Assembly: GCA_017993835.1 (NCBI GenBank)
Contig: JAGOLX010000039.1
Span: 1 to 58,352 of the forward strand
Length of the DNA stretch: 58,352 bases
Reading direction: 5' to 3'
Source of the DNA: Phycisphaerae bacterium
GTDB lineage: Bacteria > Planctomycetota > Phycisphaerae > Sedimentisphaerales > Anaerobacaceae
The notes under the pieces were generated by a model. It was not told where the DNA came from, did no database searches, and worked only from the letters and a program-made list of their open reading frames with translations. The translations under genes were made by a program, and so were the position numbers. Below are positions 8,332 to 56,567 of the stretch, piece after piece. Each line of letters starts with the position of its first letter. The first letter of the stretch is position 1.

Positions 8332-9495
8332 ATGCGAATGAACTCCAACAGAGGGGCCGCGGGTTTGGCCCTGCTCATCCTCGTATCGTTGGCGGCGCCT
8401 CGGGCCCGGGCTATTCCGCCGGACCCCGATAATGCGGCACTGCTGTACTACCAGGCGTTCTTGTCGCTGGCCGAACTGAGTGATGGTGAGCGCAGGGTAA
8501 TCCGTGCGGTGGCGAAAGGCGAGGCAGACCCGAACGACCGGGCACGAGAATACATCCAGAAGTGTCGGGGGGCGATTGAATTTGCCGAGGCCGCAGCCCA
8601 GGTGCCGACGTGCAATTGGGGTTTCAGGTTCTCACAGGGATTCGACGCCCTGATGCCGCAGTTGGCCCATGTGCGGTATTTGACCTTCGTTCTTGTGGCT
8701 GATGCCCGGACTCGGGCGGTGGATGGGAACTATCGGGGGGCCTTGGAGCGGTGCCTGCTGATCGATACGCTCGCCCGCCAAGTAGGGGATGACACACTGG
8801 TTTCCTACTTGGTCTCGATTGCGGTGCGACACTCGGGGCATCGGTGCATGATCGACGTGATCAGCAAGGCCAGCGGCGACGCGTCTGTGTTGCGATGGCT
8901 GAAAGACGAACTGGCAACGAGTCCGCAGTGGAAGCTGACGCCCGTCAGGCCGCTGAAGATCGAGATGGAGATTGCGCTGGATGCGATGCAGATGGGGAAA
9001 CTCGACGCGTTTGCGCGAATCGCCGCCGAGGATGAGCACGAGCGTGCAAAGATCCGCGAGACGGCCAGCGAGGACGTTCTGGCCCAGGCGCGAGCACTGT
9101 ACTCGCAGCGTATTACGTCGGTCCTGCAGATCCTCGGCTCCTCTATGCCCTATGAGCAGGCTCACGCGCAGTTGGAGCCGTTGTGCGGTGGTTTCGACCC
9201 GAACGATCCCGCTTCGGCTCTGGCCGGCCTGATGCTGCCGGCGATCAGCCGGGTGCATACCCTCGGAACTCGAAGCGAGGCCTACGTCAATGCCGCCCGA
9301 GCGGCCGTCAAGATCTGCTTGCAGAAGGCCGAGTCCGGAAAGCTACCGACCGCATTGCCTGCCAGCCTGCCCAAGGACCCGTTCAGTGGCTCCGACTTCC
9401 AGTATGAACGAACGGACGACGGCTTCGTCCTTCGTTGCCAGGGCAAGGATCTGGACAAGGATGTGGCGGAAGGGTTCAAGTTCGTTGTGAGATGA
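8332..9495 (+). CDS. Secreted protein of unknown function in the sigma-factor operon
   Basis: 387 residues with a signal peptide (GLALLILVSLAAPRARA, cleavage near residue 28), then a largely helical protein starting IPPDPDNAALLYYQAFLSLAEL. That 'PDNAALLYYQAF' start is shared by a set of uncharacterised planctomycete exported proteins. The C-terminus (LPKDPFSGSDFQYERTDDGF) has the DPF-G pattern also found near the ends of type II pseudopilin-like and related planctomycete proteins. It lies 19 bp after the candidate anti-sigma gene and is probably in the same operon. No enzymatic motif was recognised. Confidence 0.75.
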   Translation: MRMNSNRGAAGLALLILVSLAAPRARAIPPDPDNAALLYYQAFLSLAELSDGERRVIRAVAKGEADPNDRAREYIQKCRGAIEFAEAAAQVPTCNWGFRFSQGFDALMPQLAHVRYLTFVLVADARTRAVDGNYRGALERCLLIDTLARQVGDDTLVSYLVSIAVRHSGHRCMIDVISKASGDASVLRWLKDELATSPQWKLTPVRPLKIEMEIALDAMQMGKLDAFARIAAEDEHERAKIRETASEDVLAQARALYSQRITSVLQILGSSMPYEQAHAQLEPLCGGFDPNDPASALAGLMLPAISRVHTLGTRSEAYVNAARAAVKICLQKAESGKLPTALPASLPKDPFSGSDFQYERTDDGFVLRCQGKDLDKDVAEGFKFVVR

Positions 9496-22999: not shown

Positions 23000-24487
23000 A
23001 TGAACGGATTGGCATCCAGTCAGGCAATGTGCGAGACCTGCGACCGGCCTTCTTCTCTGTCCGGGCGCAAGGTCCTGGTCATGGGATTGGGACGTTTCGG
23101 CGGGGGCGTCGATGCTGCCCGCTATGCGGTCCAGGTCGGCGCGAAGGTCGTCGTCACGGACAAGGCTCGGGAAGACCAGTTGCAGGACTCCATCAAGCAG
23201 TTGGCCGACCTGTCCGGCATCGAGTACCGCCTCGGCGGGCACGATCCCCAGGATTTCGCAACCGCCGACGTGGTGATCGCCAACCCCGCGATCCCGCTCG
23301 ACAACGAGTTCCTGCAGCTCGCGCGTCGCAGCGGCAGGACCGTCACTTCACAGATCGGGTTGTTCTTCCAGGCCTGCCCCGCTCGGATCATCGGAATCAC
23401 CGGCGCCAACGGCAAGAGCACGACCACGACCCTGACCGCGCATCTCCTGGAGCACGCGCGCCCGAAGCGACCTGCGGGGCGCGGGTCACGTGCTGTCGAA
23501 CGGTCCCATCCTCCGGAAGAGGGTGCGTCGTACGCACCCTACAAGAAAGTCTGGCTCAGCGGAAATATCGGCGACAAACCTCTGCTGACCATCCTCGACA
23601 AGGTCCAGGCCGACGACCTCGTGGTCTTGGAGATCTCCAGTTTTCAGGTCGAGCAATTGGGGGAAGTTTGCAGGGCGCCGCACGTGTCGTTGCTGACGAA
23701 CCTGACGCCCAACCACCTGGATCGCTACGGCACGTTCGAAGCCTACTGTGCTGCCAAAGAGGGTCTCTTCAACCTTCAGACGCTCGACGAGAAAGCCCCG
23801 GCGGTCTCCATCTTCAACGCCGAGGACCCGATTGCGTGTTCCTGGCACGAGAAGTACCGTTCGCAGGCGGGTCGGGTGTGTCTGACGTTCTCCGCGGACG
23901 ATGTCAGCGACAAGATGCGCAGCGAGTACGCGTTGCCCGGCCGGGCCAACCTGTCGAATCTCGCGGCTGCCATGGCGATCGCCAAGTGCTTCGGTGTCTC
24001 CGAGCGGTCCATCCGGTCCTGCCTGCCGAGCTTCAAGGCCCTTCCGCACCGGCTCGAGCTGGTTGCCGAGGGGCACGGCGTTCGCTGGTACGACGATTCG
24101 AAGGCCACGACGCCCGAGGGCGCCATGGTGGCCCTCTCAGCCTTCGACTGCCCGAAGGTCCTCATCGCGGGCGGATACGACAAGCATACCCCATTCACAG
24201 TACTGGGAGAGGCGATTGCCTCCTCTGCGAAGGCGGTGGTGCTCATCGGGCAAACCGCTCGCATGATCGCGGACGCGGTGCATGCGGCGCCGCAGGGAGG
24301 ACGGGAAATCGACGTTCAGTTTGCCGGTTCCCTGGCCGAGGCGGTCGAGATCGCCGGCCGGCTGGCGGCCCCGGGCAACGTGGTGCTGCTCAGTCCCGCC
24401 TGCGCCAGCTACGACATGTTCGAGAACTACCAGCAGCGAGGCCGTCTGTTCGGGGAACTCGCCCGGCAGGCTGCGGTACGCTCGTAG
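23000..24487 (+). CDS. murD: UDP-N-acetylmuramoyl-L-alanine--D-glutamate ligase with an in-frame insertion
   Basis: 495 residues. It adds D-glutamate to UDP-MurNAc-L-Ala in peptidoglycan precursor synthesis. An N-terminal Rossmann domain starts KVLVMGLGRFGGG. The ATP site is IGITGANGKSTTTT (about 131-144). The central-domain motif SGNIGDKPL, NHLDRYGTFEAY and the C-terminal WYDDSKATTPEG and LIAGGYDK are all present. Residues about 154-182 (PKRPAGRG...ASYAPYKK) interrupt the usual short loop between HLLEHA and KVWLSGNIG; this stretch is a palindromic repeat read in frame. All catalytic motifs survive. No other mur genes are adjacent. Confidence 0.93.
   Translation: MNGLASSQAMCETCDRPSSLSGRKVLVMGLGRFGGGVDAARYAVQVGAKVVVTDKAREDQLQDSIKQLADLSGIEYRLGGHDPQDFATADVVIANPAIPLDNEFLQLARRSGRTVTSQIGLFFQACPARIIGITGANGKSTTTTLTAHLLEHARPKRPAGRGSRAVERSHPPEEGASYAPYKKVWLSGNIGDKPLLTILDKVQADDLVVLEISSFQVEQLGEVCRAPHVSLLTNLTPNHLDRYGTFEAYCAAKEGLFNLQTLDEKAPAVSIFNAEDPIACSWHEKYRSQAGRVCLTFSADDVSDKMRSEYALPGRANLSNLAAAMAIAKCFGVSERSIRSCLPSFKALPHRLELVAEGHGVRWYDDSKATTPEGAMVALSAFDCPKVLIAGGYDKHTPFTVLGEAIASSAKAVVLIGQTARMIADAVHAAPQGGREIDVQFAGSLAEAVEIAGRLAAPGNVVLLSPACASYDMFENYQQRGRLFGELARQAAVRS
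23459..23545. repeat. REP-like insertion inside murD
   Basis: 87 bp (29 codons) absent from the family. It ends in the hairpin AGGGTGCGT (23520-23528) / ACGCACCCT (23532-23540) followed by AC, which read from the minus strand is GTAG plus hairpin. A second imperfect hairpin near 23469-23490 (GACC..GCG / CGC..GGTC) lies at the other side. The reading frame is kept through the element. Confidence 0.65.
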
Positions 24488-34026: not shown

Positions 34027-34082
34027 GTAGCACGGGCATCGTGCCCGTGATCCCCAATTCATGGGCGGGACGCCCATGCTAC
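34027..34082. repeat. GTAG-footed REP pair (BIME) that provides a stop codon
   Basis: GTAG (34027-34030) plus hairpin CACGGGCA-tcg-TGCCCGTG, a short spacer, then hairpin CATGGGCG..CGCCCATG and CTAC (34079-34082). On the minus strand the terminal GTAG supplies the TAG stop of the OYE-GltD gene (34081-34079). Confidence 0.8.
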
Positions 34083-42520: not shown

Positions 42521-43282
42521 ATGCGTAGCCTGCACGAATGGAGTCTGTCCTATGCCGAGGCCAGGGAGCTGCAGACCCGCTTGGCGGGGGAAGTGCAGTT
42601 CACGCCACTGAAAGAGCTGCCCCGACGGATTGCAGGCCTGGATTGTGCCTTCAGCAGGGACGGCAAGCGGATCTTCGCGGCGGCAGTGGTGCTGAAGGTA
42701 TGTAGCCCAGCCGCCCTCGGCTGGGAGACTGACACCCCCGAGGGTGGGGGTGCCACATTGGCTGCGACCTTCAAGTTCGAGCATGTCGAGACGGTCACGG
42801 CCGAGCGGAAAACAGAGTTCCCGTATGTCCCAGGCTTGTTGTCGTTTCGGGAAGCTCCGGTGTGTCTGGAAGTGGTCGGCAAGCTCAGCCGCGAGCCCGA
42901 CCTGTATATGATCGATGGACAGGGAGTCGCACATCCGCGACGCCTCGGACTGGCGGCGCATCTGGGCCTGTTCTTCGACAGGCCGACCGTCGGCTGTGCC
43001 AAAAGCCGACTGATCGGCACATTCGACGAGCCCGCCGATGAGAAGGGGGCCTGGAGCCCTCTGCGAGACGGTGAAGAAGTGATCGGCGCGGTGGTTCGGA
43101 CGCGAAGCCACGTGAAGCCGGTCTTCGTCTCGGTTGGCCAGCGGTGCCTGCTGGAAGACGCCGTGCGCGTGACTCTTGCGTGTACCACGAGGTACCGCAT
43201 CCCGGAACCGACGCGGCTCGCTCATCAGGCGGTGAGTTGGATCAAGCTGCAGGATTGCACGGGCAGCGGGCGTCAGGGGTAG
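42521..43282 (+). CDS. nfi: Endonuclease V with an in-frame repeat insertion
   Basis: 253 residues from ATG 42521 (GTG 42512 is an alternative). It nicks DNA 3' of deoxyinosine. Conserved blocks: the active-site Asp in IAGLDCAFSRDG, the substrate wedge PYVPGLLSFREAP with its catalytic Glu, and DGQGVAHPRRLGLAAHLG with the last metal Asp and His. Between AAAVVLK and FKFEHVETV lie about 20 residues (CSPAALGWETDTPEGGGAT) that the family lacks; they are encoded by a REP pair at 42702-42756. All catalytic residues remain, so the protein may still be functional. Confidence 0.9.
   Translation: MRSLHEWSLSYAEARELQTRLAGEVQFTPLKELPRRIAGLDCAFSRDGKRIFAAAVVLKVCSPAALGWETDTPEGGGATLAATFKFEHVETVTAERKTEFPYVPGLLSFREAPVCLEVVGKLSREPDLYMIDGQGVAHPRRLGLAAHLGLFFDRPTVGCAKSRLIGTFDEPADEKGAWSPLRDGEEVIGAVVRTRSHVKPVFVSVGQRCLLEDAVRVTLACTTRYRIPEPTRLAHQAVSWIKLQDCTGSGRQG
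42702..42756. repeat. REP pair (BIME) inside the endonuclease V gene
   Basis: GTAG (42702-42705) plus hairpin CCCAGCC-gccctc-GGCTGGG, then CACCCCC-gagggt-GGGGGTG and CCAC (42753-42756). Same design and near-identical sequence to the tandem copies at 52425-52548 and 56291-56400. Confidence 0.85.
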
Positions 43283-52424: not shown

Positions 52425-52548
52425 GTGGCCCAGCCACCCCCGGCTGGGGAGGCCCGGAGATCACCCCCGAGGGCGGGGGTGCCACATGTAGCCCAGCCAC
52501 CCCCGGCTGGGGAGGCCCGGAAATCACCCCCGAGGGCGGGGGTGCCAC
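52425..52548. repeat. Tandem REP pair array between the two VWA genes
   Basis: Two nearly identical units of about 61 bp: GTGG (52425) plus CCCAGCC..GGCTGGG, then CACCCCC..GGGGGTG and CCAC (52482-52485); and GTAG (52488) ... CCAC (52545-52548). A GGAGTTCCG module (52416-52424) precedes the array. The same two-unit arrangement occurs inverted at 56291-56400. Confidence 0.85.
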
Positions 52549-54615: not shown

Positions 54616-56567
54616 TGAAAGACGTTCTGAAATATGTCGTTCTGGCGATGTGTCTCACCCATCCAGCCATGGCGGGCAGTGGGGACAATGTCCGCGTCCG
54701 CGCCGTGGTCAACTCGGAGACCGCCATCTACCCCGGCGACACCTTCCAGTATTCCATCGTCGTCGAGGGGGGCAGCAAGCCGAGCAAGATCGACCTGTCG
54801 CCGTTGAACCCCTTCAATCCTCGTTCCGCCGGCGATGGCTCGTCGTACCACCAATTCCACGACCAGGTCGTGATCAGTCACTCCTTGAATTACGCGATCA
54901 CGGCCAAGGAGGCCGGCACGATGCACCTTCCCGGCGTGACGGTGGTCGTGGGCGGCAAGACCTACACCACCAACGCGGTCGATGTCGCGGTCTCGAAGCC
55001 GGGAACGACGGACCGTATGGCCGTGGAGTTTTCCGTCTCGGAGCGGACGTGCTACGTGGGCCAGCCGATCGTCATGACCGTGCAATGGACCGTCTCGGCC
55101 CGCTGGCAGAACGTCGCGTTCGACGTGCCGGTCTTCAAGTCGGACGCTTTCCTCGTCGAGGAGGTCTCTTCTTCGGGCGGTCCGGCCGGCGGCGAACAAA
55201 CGCTCATCGACGGGGTCCCGACGACCGTCCGTGGCACTCGCCAGCAGGTCAAGGGCGTGGAGGCAGAGGTCTTCGTCTTCAGCAAGGTCCTCATTCCCCA
55301 GCGTGCCGGCCGCCTCGTCCTCGATCCGGTCAGCGTCTCCGCCAATCTCGCGGTCGGTCGGGTCCGGACGAGCGATTTGTTCAATCCGTACACCCTGAAG
55401 TATGAGCGGGCCGCGGTGCAGTCCGCGTCCATCGAGCTGGAGGTGCGGGCGCTGCCGGAGACGGGCAAGCCCGCGGAATTCTATGGGCTGGTCGGGCGGT
55501 ATACGATCAGCGCCTCGGCCACGCCGACGAAGGTCAGCGTGGGCGACCCGATCACCGTGACCATCCGGATCGGGGGCAATCCGTATCTCAAGGCCCTGCA
55601 GTGGCCGCAGCTCGAGCAGGTGCCGGAGCTGGCGGCGAACTTCAAGATCCCGTCCGAGAAGGCCTCGCCGACCATCGAGGCTACGGCGGAGGGCCCCTGC
55701 AAGGTCTTCACTCAGACGCTCCGCGCCAACAGCGAAACCGTCACGCAGGTCCCGCCGATCCCGCTGGCCTATTTTGATTCCCAGCGGGGCGAATACGCCG
55801 TGGTCCGGACCGATCCGATCCCGCTGGAGGTCGCGCCGACGAAGATGCTCACGAACGCAGACCTGGAAGGCGCGGGGTCCGCTCCGGTGAACCGGGAGGT
55901 GGAGGCGATCCGCAAGGGCCTGTCGGCCAACTACTATGGCCCGGAGGTTCTGGTGGATCAGACCTTCTCACTGCCGTCGGCCATGGTCAGTCCCGGATAC
56001 GCCGCGATCTGGGCGATTCCGTTTGCGGGCCTCGTCGCCAGTGCCGCGATCCGTCTGTCCGGCCGGTCCAATCCCGCGTCGCTCACCCGCAGGCGTCATC
56101 GTCGAGCCGCCGGCGTGGCGGTGCAGCAACTGAAGGCCATCGTCTCCGCCGATCCGAAGCAGAGATCCGAACTGCTGCTGACCGCCCTGAAAGGCTATGT
56201 CGGCGACCGCTTCGACCGGGTCGCGGCGTCGCTGACGCCGGAGGATTGCCGACAGGTGATCGCGCAAGCTCTCGACGCGGTGGCACCCCCGTGGCACCCC
56301 CGCCCTCGAGGGTGTCTTTCCCCAGCCGGGGGCGGCTTGGCTACCTGTGGCACCCCCGCCCTCGGGGGTGTCCTTCCCCAGCCGGGGGCGGCTGAGCCAC
56401 CGGAACTCCAGACCGATTCGCCTTCTTCCCTTGCGAACCGGTACGCGGACTTGATCGCCGCCTGCGAGGGCTCGCGGTATTCCCCCCTGGCCTCCGACAT
56501 CGGCGCCGCCCAGGTCCAGGAGGCGACGGAGTTGATCGACGCCATCGAGAGGCGGGTGAAGCAATGA
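54612..56567 (+). CDS. BatD-like oxygen-tolerance protein with in-frame repeat insertion
   Basis: 651 residues. Signal peptide (VVLAMCLTHPAMAG), a long beta-rich outer region (about 20-455; VRAVVNSETAIYPGDTFQYS and later repeats of the same fold), one membrane helix (GYAAIWAIPFAGLVASAAIR, about 462-481) and a cytoplasmic helical tail. This is the BatD architecture. About 50 residues in the tail (about 560-607; starting WHPRPRGCLSPAGGG) are unlike the family and encoded by a tandem REP array. Translation stays in frame and the normal ending resumes (LANRYADLIAACEGSRYSPL). It overlaps the next gene by 4 bp. Confidence 0.9.
   Translation: MMKDVLKYVVLAMCLTHPAMAGSGDNVRVRAVVNSETAIYPGDTFQYSIVVEGGSKPSKIDLSPLNPFNPRSAGDGSSYHQFHDQVVISHSLNYAITAKEAGTMHLPGVTVVVGGKTYTTNAVDVAVSKPGTTDRMAVEFSVSERTCYVGQPIVMTVQWTVSARWQNVAFDVPVFKSDAFLVEEVSSSGGPAGGEQTLIDGVPTTVRGTRQQVKGVEAEVFVFSKVLIPQRAGRLVLDPVSVSANLAVGRVRTSDLFNPYTLKYERAAVQSASIELEVRALPETGKPAEFYGLVGRYTISASATPTKVSVGDPITVTIRIGGNPYLKALQWPQLEQVPELAANFKIPSEKASPTIEATAEGPCKVFTQTLRANSETVTQVPPIPLAYFDSQRGEYAVVRTDPIPLEVAPTKMLTNADLEGAGSAPVNREVEAIRKGLSANYYGPEVLVDQTFSLPSAMVSPGYAAIWAIPFAGLVASAAIRLSGRSNPASLTRRRHRRAAGVAVQQLKAIVSADPKQRSELLLTALKGYVGDRFDRVAASLTPEDCRQVIAQALDAVAPPWHPRPRGCLSPAGGGLATCGTPALGGVLPQPGAAEPPELQTDSPSSLANRYADLIAACEGSRYSPLASDIGAAQVQEATELIDAIERRVKQ
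56291..56430. repeat. Tandem REP pair array inside the batD-like gene, plus GGAG module
   Basis: GTGG (56291) .. CTAC (56341-56344) and GTGG (56347) .. CCAC (56397-56400), the reverse complement of the array at 52425-52548. It is followed by ggaactccagaccgattcgc (56402-56421), the complement of the module preceding the other array. Confidence 0.85.

Follow-up and report, generated by a model that had tools for sequence, protein, structure and literature searches.

The question raised by this locus is how a palindromic, repeat-like segment came to lie within the reading frame of murD, and whether the encoded enzyme still works with it. The window, that is, the whole stretch of DNA analyzed, comprises 58,352 nt of Phycisphaerae bacterium GCA_017993835.1 (contig JAGOLX010000039.1, positions 1-58,352 of the forward strand), and its genome, G000, is 6.37 Mb in size. 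The relatives of this genome are derived from metagenomes and bear the labels Phycisphaerae, Phycisphaerales, Sedimentisphaerales or Planctomycetota. All genomes compared are drafts and are either metagenome assemblies or of unstated origin. The sister species of G000 is G005 (UBA2218; murD locus L162).

The murD ORF is located at 23000..24487 on the plus strand and encodes a UDP-N-acetylmuramoyl-L-alanine--D-glutamate ligase of 495 aa. Its translation matched TIGR01087 (murD) with 336.8 bits, exceeding the equivalog cut-off of 211.95, and the match is split into two stretches which flank the insert. The AF2 model showed the MurD fold when compared with solved MurD structures (Z of 36.7 to 7ti7 and of 35.3 to 8vw0 of E. 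coli). The first-pass annotation had described the catalytic motifs around the insert as intact, and we found the same. That is, the P-loop TGANGKST (23399..23422, plus strand), read from the translation, precedes the insert, the GNIG motif (23561..23572, plus strand) follows it, and both lie in invariant columns. As to a second murD, whose existence had been left open, the search of the G000 genome found none; the sole other match was a distant paralogue (E = 8e-6). The window murD is the intact, single murD of its genome. No RNA family reached gathering scores at murD.

The insert lies in loop 1, which we define as the region from the P-loop helix to the next strand. A hairpin, GGGTGCGTCGTACGCACCCTAC, was detected there by pattern search at 23521..23542 on the minus strand; its foot is GTAG on that strand and CTAC on the plus strand. 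It is the single match in the window at <=3 mismatches, and none was obtained in 100 shuffles, so that the CTAC-footed hairpin described earlier is borne out. The sequence GTAGGGTGCGTACGACGCACC is read on the minus strand at 23522-23542 (G000:C15) with 0 mismatches, with GTAG unpaired at one end of the hairpin. The hairpin is in frame within the ORF.

The origin of this segment became clear from the comparison with G005. The murD of G005 contains a complete inverted dimer, GTAGGGTGCGTATCACGCACC...GGTGCGTTGTGCGCACCCTAC, of 69 bp, with GTAG pointing inward from both ends. On folding, this dimer gives a single long hairpin (z -7.2), whereas the G000 copy does not stand out in this way (z -1.1). 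In G000 the 3' hairpin alone is still palindromic, and the decayed 5' half (23465..23500, plus strand, the end coordinate being approximate), which corresponds to GTAGGGTGCGTATCACGCACC in G005, can be identified solely through this comparison. The alignment with the G005 dimer and with insertion-free congeners places the repeat-derived segment, a decayed REP dimer, at K156-Y181 (about 23465..23542, plus strand), that is, about 26 codons. The interval from TG to NIG comprises 58 residues in G000, 55 in G005 and 39 or 36 in the congeners, the insertion-free murDs being those of G001, G004, G006, G002, G007 and G008. Net, 19 codons have been gained (58 residues compared with 39). Thus the 29-codon insertion proposed at 23459-23545 (R154-K182) is real as an insertion, but its length includes ordinary loop residues. 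Judging from these alignments, about 26 amino acids of the window MurD are derived from a mobile-type palindromic repeat.

It could be argued that loop 1 is an old lineage-specific feature of MurD and that its likeness to a REP arose by chance, and the order does include loops of differing length (6-13 residues where there is no repeat). However, the G005 murD carries a complete GTAG...CTAC dimer, which is identical base for base to dispersed copies (GTAGGGTGCGTATCACGCACC), the family occurs genome-wide in both genomes, and no shuffle gave a match. The other congeners that have a murD are insertion-free. This explanation is refuted by the G005 copy, and we give it practically no weight.

The first half of the hairpin gave 111 matches in G000 (54+57), compared with 2 for a control pattern. 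Elsewhere in the genus there were 78 matches in G005, 133 in G002 and 139 in G008, and few in G004 and G006; three further genera were tested, and there the pattern stayed at the control level. Paired plus and minus matches of about 66-73 bp end to end, that is, inverted dimers, were found at several places in G000 and G005. The copies are mostly intergenic: among 48 inspected places other than murD, one lies within a gene-supported ORF with coding sequence on both sides. Other G000 copies were considered as in-gene copies and rejected, since most of the long ORFs across them are without Pfam support or have the element upstream of the domain. With a GTAG foot on a short hairpin, many dispersed and mostly intergenic copies, and inverted dimers, the element of the insert is, on these sequence features, a genus-level GTAG REP family.

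Genes with PF01797 (Y1 transposase of the RAYT type) are present in all nine genus genomes (9/9). In G000, we found no RAYT gene flanked by an exact copy of the murD REP, the nearest hairpin differing at 4 positions; another PF01797 copy of this genome is flanked by a different REP.

The same REP family also occurs in one more conserved gene, which is mannitol-dehydrogenase-like. In L177 (G000:C101:69562-70884) and L178 (G005) an in-frame dimer near the C-terminus codes VGCAPHTSSSSSSERCVIRTLQ, and it is missing in G004 and G008, the comparison being restricted to these four genomes.

In-gene GTAG REPs are already known, and the window murD copy alone belongs to that kind. GTAG REPs are described as short hairpins that form inverted dimers and are mostly intergenic, with planctomycetes among their hosts (PMC3733652). 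Di Nocera et al. (2013) reported intragenic copies, some of them in frame, with dimers coding 20-30 residues for which a location in loops was suggested (PMC3733652). In these respects (foot, hairpin, dimers, in-frame position, mostly intergenic family) the window insert is like the elements treated there. Among in-gene targets that paper stresses DNA repair genes, and it describes different REPs at about one recB site in two Xanthomonas species. In its text, so far as it was accessible, murD occurs 0 times, and one enzyme with two loops colonized by unrelated families is not described.

Another comparison is with the Rickettsia palindromic elements (Ogata et al. 2000, 2002), which are selfish palindromes in frame in unrelated protein genes, the product being presumed functional (PMC10969869). 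Their unit is about 150 bp (PMC10969869, PMC3733652), and RPE-4 and RPE-6 have the foot CGTC (PMC3733652). As these sources present them, the murD insert is similar in being an in-frame palindrome but differs in its 69 bp and its GTAG feet, and shows neither of these RPE features.

In a MurD tree calculated with the loops excluded, G000 and G005 were sisters (support 99/93), and next to this pair stood G001, G004 and G006, all insertion-free. Because the carriers are sisters and insertion-free species come next, the simplest account would be one insertion before the split of G000 and G005. Draft genomes also raise the possibility of an assembly artefact, that is, repeats misjoined into murD. 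Most of the genomes were assembled from metagenomes and are fragmented, and repeats provoke misassembly. Against this, the insert is at the identical codon in two species that were separately assembled and that differ at half of their synonymous sites. In addition, the frames are open across the loops, and loop repeats are found in single-contig genomes too (G025). We therefore regard an artefact as very improbable.

We compared the strength of selection on the core and on the insert. The dN/dS of the core between G000 and G005 was 0.117/0.84 (0.14), and the values of the carriers against the insertion-free G004 were 0.127/0.92 and 0.108/0.87, that is, the same or slightly lower. The dN/dS of the insert was about 0.35 (22 codons), looser than that of the core. 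Because purifying selection on the core is equal with and without the insert, MurD with the insert very probably works, its role as a D-Glu ligase being predicted. In the AF2 model (mean pLDDT 81.9), residues 153-183 are coil and residues 159-172 are below 50, so that the repeat-derived segment is modelled as low-confidence coil. The earlier suggestion of a new protein segment formed by a repeat element, in the loop after the ATP-binding helix, is thus supported; the other orthologues are short-looped, and the insert is found in the two sister species only.

The first-pass annotation had also called MurD normally highly constrained. The constraint is not uniform, however. Across the family, both loop 1 and another loop, which belongs to the C-terminal domain (loop 2; window residues 429-445, 24284..24334, plus strand), vary in length and have taken up many other repeats. 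Loop 2 is without a repeat in the window murD, whereas it is repeat-filled in many relatives. A repeat was found in loop 1 or loop 2 in 31 of the 69 murDs of the family. Within these genes the loops, which total 7.3 kb, contained 51 repeat matches and the cores, which total 87.8 kb, contained none, with loop boundaries that were set after the first 30 murD loci had been inspected; in a second, previously uninspected set of murDs, the loops again contained repeats.

The repeats themselves are of several kinds: the REP dimer, a CATTGCGAG palindrome, a GGATTCCCGC palindrome (G080) and many heptamer arrays, which are based on ACGAGGG, GACAGAG, AATTACC, ACGCAAT or CAGAAGA. Loop 1 of other genera of the family holds different dispersed repeats, and so does loop 2. 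In loop 1 the palindrome TCATTGCGAGCGAAGCGAAGCAATC codes VIASEAKQS, and in loop 2 it codes SLRAKRSNLK. In G085 (L258, 1253-1368), loop 1 has 62 residues, most of which are encoded by 16.6 copies of TCTTCTG. In cyanobacteria, STRR (short tandemly repeated repetitive) heptamers are degenerate 7-bp tandem arrays scattered in the genome. The family arrays resemble them by this description but differ in also coding MurD loop residues.

Two of the motifs, the ACGAGGG heptamer and the CATTGCGAG palindrome, were searched genome-wide, and both are dispersed repeats of the family genomes. A search with the exact spaced pattern CATTGCGAGCGA-N-GAGCGAAGCAATC proved overly stringent, giving 2 matches, and another was used instead. 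In G021, G017 and G022 together there were 42 CATTGCGAG palindromes, of which 5 are in ORFs of >=100 aa; one of these ORFs has a Pfam domain (HNH/AP2), with the element near its N-terminus.

By parsimony, the presence of a repeat must have changed at least 17 times in loop 1 and at least 16 times in loop 2, gains and losses being mixed. The tree behind these counts was built quickly and its inner branches are weak, and some of the palindromes in loop 2 may have been inherited from a common ancestor. Even in G031 and G098, which belong to one genus and have MurDs that are 85% identical, the repeats in loop 1 differ. As judged from these comparisons, the turnover of repeats in the MurD loops is quick.

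Two further observations were made in these genes. In G027 (L147), a heptamer-like array, AAACGAAAAACGAATATCGAAT, lies at 8724-8812 near the start of the murD ORF, possibly a third site in the N-terminus or the upstream region. In G036 (L157/L236) and G088 (L259), loop 2 contains an inserted segment, SLQGVAATEQSEVDGPS or similar, whose DNA, GTGGCAGCCACTGAGCAAAG, is common to the two genera and is probably one more repeat family.

Neighbouring genes, called as ORFs by length (>=150 aa), served as a control. Across 16 murD neighbourhoods, 11 of 14 murDs carried heptamer arrays or the CATTGCGAG palindrome, compared with none of 159 other ORFs (p = 5e-15). These 159 ORFs amount to 166.8 kb and include another Mur ligase, IspD and OMP-decarboxylase. 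The noncoding DNA of the neighbourhoods had 17 such repeats in 66 kb, and the repeat density was 9.9 per 10 kb in murD vs 2.6 in noncoding DNA. If tolerance were the sole cause, other genes with variable loops should carry repeats too, but the 159 neighbours carry none.

Two alternatives bear on this concentration. The repeats may be kept because they are useful, through the added residues or through an mRNA hairpin (e.g., in the regulation of MurD), so that selection and not tolerance is the cause. The excess over noncoding DNA and the absence from the neighbours are in line with this. On the other hand, the encoded peptides are unrelated (DERRGTR, NTQYAIRNTQ, SLRAKRSNLK, GCVSRTVQ), more than half of the family murDs have no repeat, the window insert drifts faster than the core, and the RNA fold of the dimer has been lost in G000. 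We consider usefulness rather unlikely. The other alternative is a physical hotspot, that is, insertion itself is commoner at the murD loops, for example at the target CTAC in GGCCCTACGG of related empty sites. Distant relatives carry CCCTACGG here, and the CTAC end of the element is at exactly that place; but the heptamer arrays and other palindromes in the same loops have no target in common with the REP, and such a motif is absent from loop 2. A physical hotspot seems to us unlikely.

We consider it highly probable that a REP dimer was inserted in frame in the common ancestor of G000 and G005 and was tolerated, as one case of a family-wide colonization of two permissive MurD loops. A GTAG-footed dimer, of the type mobilized by RAYT transposases, would have entered loop 1. 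The murD frame runs open through the element, and loop 1 is at the helix end far from the nucleotide, so that the enzyme would have kept folding and working. The inserted residues would then have drifted, the core remaining constrained. Both loops would be permissive surface sites for whatever dispersed repeats a genome has; an open-frame repeat would be survivable there, and elsewhere in genes it would be purged by selection. The sequences themselves establish the insertion, the family of its element, its lack in congeners, its persistence under purifying selection and the crowding of repeats into both loops, whereas we infer mobilization by RAYT, neutrality of the insert and that the hotspot is due to tolerance. 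With somewhat better than even confidence, we also think that the two loops are a refuge, in which unrelated repeats are captured as coding sequence and turned over within a genus, with core and neighbours clean, either because long disordered loops are beneficial or because MurD is uniquely tolerant.

Within a limited open-access set of papers, we found no case of an essential enzyme in which unrelated repeats, among them tandem arrays, have repeatedly colonized two loops. Whether selfish repeats give rise to lasting protein segments is a question that has mostly been argued on individual examples. MurD, by itself, has many natural insertions at two known positions, together with insertion-free sister species and solved relatives, and for this reason cost, benefit and structural effect are directly measurable. 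Spurious-looking peptides such as SLRAKRSNL and VIASEAKQS can be genuine parts of conserved enzymes.

The window also contains other REPs. A second GTAG family, GTAGCCCAGCCGCCCTCGGCTGGG, has five copies in the window (0 expected), located at 42702-42725 (plus strand), 52425-52511 (plus strand) and 56321-56400 (minus strand). A partial Y1 transposase at G000:C37 (L125) is surrounded by six GTAGCCCAGCCGCCCTCGGCTGGG copies. Two hairpins with GTAG feet, GTAGCACGGGCATCGTGCCCGTG at 34027 (plus strand) and GTAGCATGGGCGTCCCGCCCATG at 34082 (minus strand), are oppositely oriented and may represent a third REP family.
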